Shown in pieces: positions 8,120-55,408 of a stretch of DNA of 64,000 bases. Position numbers and translations under genes: made by a program. Every line of letters starts with the position of its first letter. Position 1 is the stretch's first letter. Origin of the DNA: Pelagicoccus enzymogenes (GTDB taxonomy: Bacteria; Verrucomicrobiota; Verrucomicrobiia; Opitutales; Opitutaceae). The stretch lies in NCBI RefSeq assembly GCF_014803405.1, contig NZ_JACYFG010000040.1, positions 310,001-374,000 on the forward strand, given 5' to 3'. The notes under the pieces are model-generated. The model worked only from the letters and a program-made list of their open reading frames with translations, was not told the DNA's origin and ran no database searches.

Positions 8120-8183
8120 GTGGGAAGCGACCTTGCGTCGCGATTTCCTGCCTGATCAATCGCGACGCAAGGTCGCTTCCCAC
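8120..8183. repeat. Perfect 26-bp inverted repeat (REP-like)
   Basis: The arms 8120-8145 and 8158-8183 are exact reverse complements, separated by 12 bases. The arms contain GCGACCTTGCGTCGC, a palindromic core of its own. It lies between two convergent genes and could fold into a long hairpin on either transcript. There is no T tract, so it is probably an mRNA-stabilising or REP element rather than a terminator. Confidence 0.85.
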
Positions 8184-16848: not shown

Positions 16849-16873
16849 GTGGGAGCGTGCTTGTCACGCGATT
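16849..16873. repeat. REP-like element, GCGTG-N5-CACGC hairpin
   Basis: GTGGGAGCGTGCTTGTCACG followed by CGATT contains a 5-bp stem GCGTG/CACGC. The first 24 bases differ from 54581-54604 (inside cmoB) at only two positions. It lies 15 bases after the ABC-F stop codon. Confidence 0.7.
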
Positions 16874-54415: not shown

Positions 54416-55408
54416 ATGCAGCCGCCACTTTCCACCTACGAAGATCTCTACAAGCTCCTAGCTGACACGGACCTGGAACCCTGGATCGAGCCGCTTCGCC
54501 AAACCGTCGAACCCGCAATCCTCCAGTCCAACAACGGCCACCTCGACAAATGGCTCAACGCCATCGACTCGCTTCCCGATGTAGGAGCGTGCTCGTCACG
54601 CGATCTCGCCTCCTCACCCGCCATCCAAATCGGCCGTCCCCAAGACCTCGATACAGCTCAACGAGCCGCCCTCCCCGACACCCTCCACAACTTCCGTCCT
54701 TGGCGCAAAGGTCCCTTCGACTTCTTCGGCACCCATGTCGACACCGAATGGCGCTCCGACCTGAAGTGGGATCGCCTGATCGGAGGCATCTCCGACCTTA
54801 CGGACCGCCTCGTTCTCGATATCGGATGCGGCAGCGGCTACCACTGCTGGCGCATGGCCGGAGCCGGCGCCAAGCTCGCGCTCGGGACCGATCCCTTCCT
54901 GCTCTACGTCATGCAGTACCTCGCGGCGAGAAAGTACCTGCAAGAGCCCCCTGTTTGGGTTCTCCCCTTCGGCATCGAAGGCCTTCCTCCAGCGCTTCCC
55001 GCCTTCGACACCGTATTCAGCATGGGGATACTCTACCATCGCCGCTCCCCTTTCGACCACCTCTACGAACTGCGCAACTTCCTCCGGCCCGGGGGCGAAC
55101 TCGTGCTCGAAACCATCGTGGTGGACGGACCCAAGGGACATTCCCTTGTGCCGGACCAGTACTACGCCAAAATGAAAAACGTCTGGTTTATTCCCACGGT
55201 CGAAACCCTCGTCCAATGGGTCACCCGCTGCCGCTATCGCGACATCCAAGTGATCGACGTTTCCACCACAACTACCGAAGAGCAACGAGGGACCGAATGG
55301 ATGGTCTTCGAATCGCTCAGCGACTTCCTCGACCCCAAGGATCCCACAAAAACCATCGAAGGCTACCCCGCCCCCAAACGAGCCGTCATCACCGCCAAAG
55401 CTCCCTAA
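54416..55408 (+). CDS. cmoB: tRNA U34 carboxymethyltransferase CmoB, with an in-frame REP-like segment
   Basis: 330 residues. MPWRKGPF-like PWRKGPFDFFG, DTEWRSDLKWDR, LDIGCGSGYHCWRM, VFSMGILYHRRSPFDHL, and EEQRGTEWMVFESLSDFLDP match E. coli CmoB closely along the length, so the assignment is firm. It transfers the carboxymethyl group from carboxy-SAM (made by CmoA) to 5-hydroxyuridine at tRNA position 34. Residues about 56-64 (VGACSSRDL) are encoded by a copy of the dispersed repeat (54581-54605), between the conserved LP and PWRKGPF motifs. There the protein is about three residues longer than E. coli CmoB. The frame is intact, so this is likely a tolerated insertion in a surface region. Confidence 0.95.
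   Translation: MQPPLSTYEDLYKLLADTDLEPWIEPLRQTVEPAILQSNNGHLDKWLNAIDSLPDVGACSSRDLASSPAIQIGRPQDLDTAQRAALPDTLHNFRPWRKGPFDFFGTHVDTEWRSDLKWDRLIGGISDLTDRLVLDIGCGSGYHCWRMAGAGAKLALGTDPFLLYVMQYLAARKYLQEPPVWVLPFGIEGLPPALPAFDTVFSMGILYHRRSPFDHLYELRNFLRPGGELVLETIVVDGPKGHSLVPDQYYAKMKNVWFIPTVETLVQWVTRCRYRDIQVIDVSTTTTEEQRGTEWMVFESLSDFLDPKDPTKTIEGYPAPKRAVITAKAP
54581..54605. repeat. REP-like element in frame inside cmoB
   Basis: GTAGGAGCGTGCTCGTCACG followed by CGATC differs from the spacer copy at 16849-16873 at only two positions in the first 24 bases. It keeps the GCGTG/CACGC hairpin. It encodes part of CmoB without disturbing the frame. Confidence 0.8.

Follow-up and report, generated by a model that had tools for sequence, protein, structure and literature searches.

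The cmoB gene of Pelagicoccus enzymogenes carries, in frame, a 24-base palindromic repeat that belongs to a dispersed REP family, which we call family A, and this RAYT-type element is very probably tolerated by a linker of the CmoB protein rather than useful to it. How would such a repeat come to lie there? A family-A copy moved by a RAYT would have landed in the linker that leads from the N-terminal helices of CmoB to the next strand, and would have been retained because it is open in that frame and because the linker tolerates changes in sequence and length. The repeat would add no known function; its presence is presumably neutral, with CmoB presumably still active.

A REP in frame in the CmoB linker

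The window, the 64,000-nucleotide stretch of the P. enzymogenes genome analysed here, contains cmoB at 54416–55408 on the plus strand, an uninterrupted ORF for a tRNA U34 carboxymethyltransferase of 330 amino acids. An earlier sequence-only reading of this DNA had named the host gene CmoB and its frame intact, and we confirmed both: the protein matches the TIGR00452 equivalog with 440.5 bits (cut-off 275) and the CmoB structure 4qnu with an E-value of 1.4e-105. Its predicted structure, with a mean pLDDT of 91.4, superimposes on structure 4qnx with a TM score of 0.90.

The repeat itself, GTAGGAGCGTGCTCGTCACGCGAT, occupies positions 54581–54604 (plus strand) and is read as codons 56–63, VGACSSRD. 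Nine residues, VGACSSRDL, had been ascribed to it; eight are indeed encoded by the 24 bases, and the ninth, L, comes from the next codon, CTC. The GCGTG/CACGC hairpin proposed earlier was recovered as the minimum-energy fold (−6.3 kcal/mol), with a 5-bp stem formed by the arms at 54587–54591 and 54597–54601 (both plus strand) and a loop of 5 bases, although the fold energy of the lone cmoB 24-mer is no better than that of its shuffles (z −0.36). A second family-A REP, GTGGGAGCGTGCTTGTCACGCGAT, lies at 16849–16872 on the plus strand, where a stop codon is seen by eye 15 bases before it; reading both copies bears out the two-position difference noted between them. At up to 3 mismatches the degenerate 24-mer was found at only these two places in the window, 54581 and 16849 (expected, 0.00 from 100 shuffles), and when all 63,976 plus-strand 24-mers of the window were scored against the family pattern, 17 or more matches occurred only within the two REPs. 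The window also holds a REPIN-like doublet at 8120–8183: the family-C-like REP GTGGGAAGCGACCTTGCGTCGCGAT, which has 3 mismatches to the family-C string used here, lies there twice in inverted orientation, at 8120 on the plus strand and at 8159 on the minus strand.

In the predicted structure, residues 53–69 form a loop (pLDDT block means, 88 and 84) preceded by a helix at 43–52 and followed by a strand at 70–72. Comparison of 86 orthologues delimits the variable linker as the 13 residues between LPD and AIQIG, residues 56–68, encoded at 54581–54619 on the plus strand. This set was obtained from 94 rows (the window and 93 loci) by dropping 8 duplicates, and one source of the rows was the best 80 of 312 matches. 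The linker has 11 residues in 76 of the 86 sequences, so that of P. enzymogenes exceeds the usual length by 2. Thirteen residues are shared with SDUM812002, G002 and one cellvibrionalean bin; longer linkers occur in P. mobilis (18), a Kiritimatiellales bin (24) and DG1235 (26), and lengths of 12, 10 and 6 are represented by one sequence each. Within the genus alone, loop lengths span 11–26 residues. Relative to E. coli CmoB, the excess between LP and PWRKGPF, put earlier at about three residues, was found to be exactly 3, with one gap in the linker and two just after it. The description of CmoB as a highly conserved enzyme holds for the protein as a whole and fails for the linker that houses the repeat.

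Because the linker gained only 2 residues and a clean insertion of 24 bases would have added 8, ancestral bases must also have been lost or replaced: either part of the old CmoB linker was lost, or the repeat took its place.

The distribution of the gene is patchy. All 8 genomes of the genus gave strong full-length CmoB matches, as did 2 of the 29 further family members searched. Among the best 80 of 312 matches, the nearest CmoB relatives bear the name Pelagicoccus, and the best ones outside the genus are from Haliea. Haliea is a gammaproteobacterium, and horizontal transfer of CmoB is possible.

Family A, its likely mover and other in-frame copies

The GTRG-tagged pattern that defines family A, GTRGGAGCGTGCTYGTCACGCGAT, occurs at 72 places in the 6.2-Mb genome of P. 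enzymogenes at up to 3 mismatches, and at none when the pattern is reversed as a control. The 24-mer is therefore a genome-wide family, the outcome that the sequence-only reading had named as support, and the cmoB copy is a perfect representative of it (24/24). The GTRG tag stands at the 5′ end of the REP and is unpaired in the fold, in agreement with a GTAG/GTGG tag; the 5-bp stem lies within the 5–13 bp of the GTAG superfamily (PMC3733652, Table 1), and the many dispersed copies in a single genome are a further mark of such repeats. Seven inverted close pairs were seen by eye among the 72 copies, with starts 37–49 bases apart; the cmoB copy is single. Family A is a GTRG-tagged REP; such small palindromes are non-autonomous and are presumably mobilised by RAYT transposases. 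In the genus it is present in 6 of 8 genomes, with 72 copies (at up to 3 mismatches) in P. enzymogenes, 58 in P. mobilis, 16 in SDUM812002 and 0 in G002. A stricter pattern that left the stem free was applied to 61 sampled genomes of the taxonomic family, of which only two (P. enzymogenes and G002) represent the genus; P. enzymogenes alone matched, and G002 did not.

What moves family A? Y1_Tnp genes are present in all 8 genomes of the genus, and P. enzymogenes has 8 Y1_Tnp matches, one of them below the curated cut-off. In P. mobilis, one Y1_Tnp gene (G004, contig C15) is flanked on both sides by exact family-A REPs in inverted orientation, which is the arrangement of REPs around RAYT genes given in PMC2817692. 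At the P. enzymogenes RAYT loci, family-A REPs (up to 5 mismatches) were found at 0 of 8 within the flanks examined, in an assembly of 60 contigs. The P. enzymogenes homologue of the P. mobilis RAYT is 52% identical, syntenic and surrounded by similar adjoining sequence, and it is flanked by family-C-like REPs with 1 to 4 mismatches (locus L170; L165 in P. mobilis), a picture that would fit either a joint change of this RAYT and its REP or an exchange. Other RAYT-like loci of the P. enzymogenes genome (L156, L162, L173 and L176) bear GTAG hairpins of their own on their flanks, with a sequence that differs from locus to locus. By analogy with P. mobilis, a RAYT is the probable mover of family A in P. 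enzymogenes as well.

Family-A copies are read in frame in other proteins of the same genome, as RVTSTLL in ImuB, RVTSTLP in DnaE2 and RVASTLP in a MocR-type regulator. Comparison with relatives (8 genomes each for ImuB and DnaE2 and 7 for the MocR-type regulator, beside the 86 CmoB sequences) places all three in linkers whose sequence and length differ from one congener to another. Two more copies, with 2 mismatches each, lie in a fused hydantoinase A/B ORF that is supported by Pfam and NCBIfam. At least 6 of the 72 family-A copies are thus inside ORFs with family support, a lower bound in which the CmoB, ImuB, DnaE2 and MocR copies were compared with orthologues and the two hydantoinase copies are counted on family support only. 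We also scanned with Pfam 20 long REP-spanning ORFs picked by length and position: 15 had no family, 4 carried the REP N-terminal of the family match and were not counted as intragenic, and the twentieth was the hydantoinase ORF.

We rechecked the imuB, dnaE2 and MocR sites with four REP families, A to D, at up to 4 mismatches. ImuB contains A, B and C in P. enzymogenes, B in SDUM812002 and none in the other six genomes, and the SDUM812002 B lies, in opposite orientation, in the linker that holds A in P. enzymogenes. The late DnaE2 linker contains A, C and B in P. enzymogenes and D and C in SDUM812002; A adjoins the shared C in the former, and D adjoins C in the latter. At the early DnaE2 site we found B and C in P. 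enzymogenes, A and C in P. mobilis and B in G002, and no such repeat in IP29b_bin.57, G006 or DG1235. Inspected by eye, this early site shows in SDUM812005 an A copy split by a partly palindromic insert of about 40 bases, which looks as if a repeat had entered another repeat, and in SDUM812002 a C-like remnant. SDUM812005 has one more B in its dnaE2 ORF, so close to the N-terminus that it may lie ahead of the start. The MocR site has A in P. enzymogenes and no repeat in six others. Less expected is that the linkers of CmoB, ImuB and DnaE2 are occupied by REPs in several congeners, often by different ones. One region of the P. enzymogenes genome, 406–412 kb of contig C50, gathers 3 in-frame REPs in ImuB and 5 in DnaE2, from three families (up to 4 mismatches), the congeners having fewer or none. 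The ImuB and DnaE2 REPs agree with the published observation that such repeats frequently decorate repair genes.

The cmoB site among congeners and the history of the repeat

Among the 86 orthologues, matches in register with the family-A pattern number 24/24 in P. enzymogenes, 22/24 in SDUM812002 and 17/24 in G002, where the copy is decayed; the next best, G006, has 12/24. The repeat has the same boundaries and the same net length in the three carriers and encodes VGACSSRD, VGGCLSRD and VGPLPPHD, respectively. Orthologues without the repeat have unrelated residues at the site, an outcome that the sequence-only reading had proposed as a check, and VGACSSRD is missing from these relatives. SDUM812005 lacks the repeat residues in a CmoB that is 90% identical to that of P. 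enzymogenes, and no clear repeat was found at the cmoB site in SDUM812005, G006 or IP29b_bin.57. P. mobilis has a variant repeat, GTGGGAGGCTGCTTGTCAGCCGAT, which starts 9 bases further on and has the stem GGCTG/CAGCC; since its four differences from family A are two exchanged base pairs, the hairpin is kept. A genus-wide search for this stem at 0 mismatches found no second copy beyond P. mobilis cmoB. The DG1235 linker contains an unrelated 15-residue expansion that includes GGAGCCTTGGCGAAGGAGGAA. Tested as another repeat family, this string has 8 matches in G007 at up to 2 mismatches; the sole exact one is its own site, so that the result is no more than suggestive of a relation to a loosely dispersed repeat.

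The state of the cmoB copy strains the view of a tolerated relic. Four-fold Jukes–Cantor distances from P. enzymogenes cmoB are 0.87 for SDUM812002, 1.03 for G002 and 0.49 for P. mobilis. For a shared insertion that drifts, the P. enzymogenes branch should have accumulated about 10 changes in the 24 bases by our estimate (half of 0.87 × 24), and 0 are seen. This estimate of age is shaky because the P. mobilis distance is smaller than that of SDUM812002, against the four-gene tree; in that tree the order of P. enzymogenes, SDUM812005 and SDUM812002 has a support of only 71, and IP29b_bin.57 lacks one gene. A mismatch-free copy among congeners that are far diverged at silent sites is nevertheless not explained by a long-standing neutral relic: the copy is pristine, its site seemingly old. 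Nor is neutrality agreed upon, as a survey (PMC3733652) argues that repair proteins may have changed in activity through the REPs in their genes.

Could the repeat have been put to use, as the term exapted in the sequence-only reading implied? Residues encoded by the REP would then have been co-opted and kept by selection on CmoB, for example for tRNA contact or oligomer packing, and both the 24/24 agreement with the family, at a site of such age that change is expected, and the identical boundaries and length in SDUM812002 and G002 speak for it. A domesticated REP should show residues conserved among its carriers, which we did not find: they differ between carriers, are unrelated in other congeners and are absent from SDUM812005. 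On these grounds we disfavour co-option and judge it improbable. The loop length of 11 to 26 residues within the genus, the prediction of a loop at this place and the presence of the same element in unrelated proteins of the genome (ImuB, DnaE2 and the MocR-type regulator) point instead to general tolerance. That a coding sequence resembles the repeat by chance is scarcely conceivable, given 0 expected in window shuffles and a perfect match to a family of 72, and we found no point in its favour.

If the repeat is merely tolerated, when did it arrive? The linker may be a preferred or tolerant site hit recently and separately in several Pelagicoccus lineages, which we regard as a fair possibility short of probable. 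The P. mobilis variant, with another stem found only there in the genus and a start 9 bases further on, argues for separate hits, as do the unrelated expansion of DG1235 at the linker, the little-changed copies of P. enzymogenes and SDUM812002, and the ImuB and DnaE2 linkers that were also struck in several congeners; however, identical boundaries and net length in three species are unlikely to arise in this way unless the target is very specific. Alternatively, and with nearly equal standing, a single REP would have entered before G002 split from the clade of P. enzymogenes; other REPs in the genome would since have served to rewrite the cmoB copy, through gene conversion or the insertion of one REP into another, and it would decay where donors are lost. 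This would account for the three species that agree in register and boundaries (24/24, 22/24 and 17/24, with 12/24 the next best), and for the pristine state of a copy on whose branch about 10 changes are expected; where the copy is decayed, in G002, the genome has 0 family-A copies, against 72 in P. enzymogenes and 16 in SDUM812002, and families have been exchanged at shared sites (A and B in ImuB; both the early and the late DnaE2 site). Several observations resist rewriting: SDUM812005, of the same clade, has no REP; P. mobilis has 58 family-A copies, yet its cmoB repeat has another stem; the silent distances of cmoB depart from the four-gene tree, in which the order of the nearest three species is weakly supported (71); and A and B in ImuB are opposite in orientation, which speaks for separate insertions there. 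Nor did we find a conversion tract, as the flanks of the cmoB copy match those of none of the other copies of the 72 clearly above random. In the comparison of downstream flanks, ImuB, whose 24-mer is identical, scored 7, which is no evidence because it just reaches the 99% level set by 2000 random stretches and is one of 71 comparisons.

A wider version of the tolerated-REP reading would be that the linkers of CmoB, ImuB and two places of DnaE2 are long-lived REP sites of Pelagicoccus, repeatedly overwritten in place, via gene conversion or REP-into-REP insertion, by the REP family then active in each genome. The cmoB copy would stay pristine while donors persist (72 copies and 24/24 in P. 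enzymogenes) and decay once the family dies out (0 copies and 17/24 in G002). We put this forward as a conjecture, doubtful as it stands but made slightly more likely by the other REPs found at the ImuB and DnaE2 sites of congeners; if true, the linkers would form a readable record of REP-family turnover.

Comparison with known REP systems

REPs inside coding sequences have a precedent. A 2013 survey of GTAG and CGTC repeats (PMC3733652, BMC Genomics) describes REPs wholly inside ORFs and reports most intragenic GTAG repeats from Opitutus terrae, also of the Verrucomicrobia, with DnaE2 and other repair genes and tRNA pseudouridine synthases among the targets. In recB, two Xanthomonas species differ in the REP found at roughly one position. 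The survey holds that linkers or loops may take up insertions neutrally, yet also that the presence of repair genes among the targets may be more than coincidence. Like those GTAG REPs, family A is a GTAG/GTGG-tagged stem-loop, dispersed, associated with a RAYT gene in P. mobilis and found in frame in ORFs. It differs from them in its host, Pelagicoccus, in its target, CmoB, and in coding sites that can be compared across eight congeners. The parts of the survey's main text consulted here do not name CmoB as an intragenic target; a literature search found no paper on palindromic repeats in Pelagicoccus, and the two found for cmoB appear to concern other subjects. As far as these sources go, the in-frame REP is a known phenomenon and CmoB is new as a target.

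The REPs and REPINs of Pseudomonas, as presented in the parts consulted of PMC3116915 (PLoS Genet 2011) and PMC2817692 (BMC Genomics 2010), are very similar in design, for example GTAGGAGCCAGCTTGCTGGCGAA and GTGGGAGGGGGCTTGCCCCCGAT, and share with the repeats studied here the inverted doublets and the inverted REPs that flank a RAYT, here in P. mobilis. They are described as extragenic; in family A, supported ORFs contain at least 6 of the 72 copies. The RPE of Rickettsia, as cited in PMC3733652, resemble the cmoB copy as palindromic repeats in frame in genes for likely functional proteins; unlike family A, the intragenic RPE-4 and RPE-6 of R. conorii are of the CGTC type and have no associated transposase genes.

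CmoB thereby joins the proteins, and Pelagicoccus the hosts, in which in-frame REPs are known. Across the eight congeners, the coding sites can be read in fresh, decayed, variant, exchanged and absent states, and whether REPs spread by clean insertion or by replacement of an older repeat is testable there. The cmoB copy is thus an ordinary REP in an unusual yet precedented place, and the comparison of shared sites is the part worth following.
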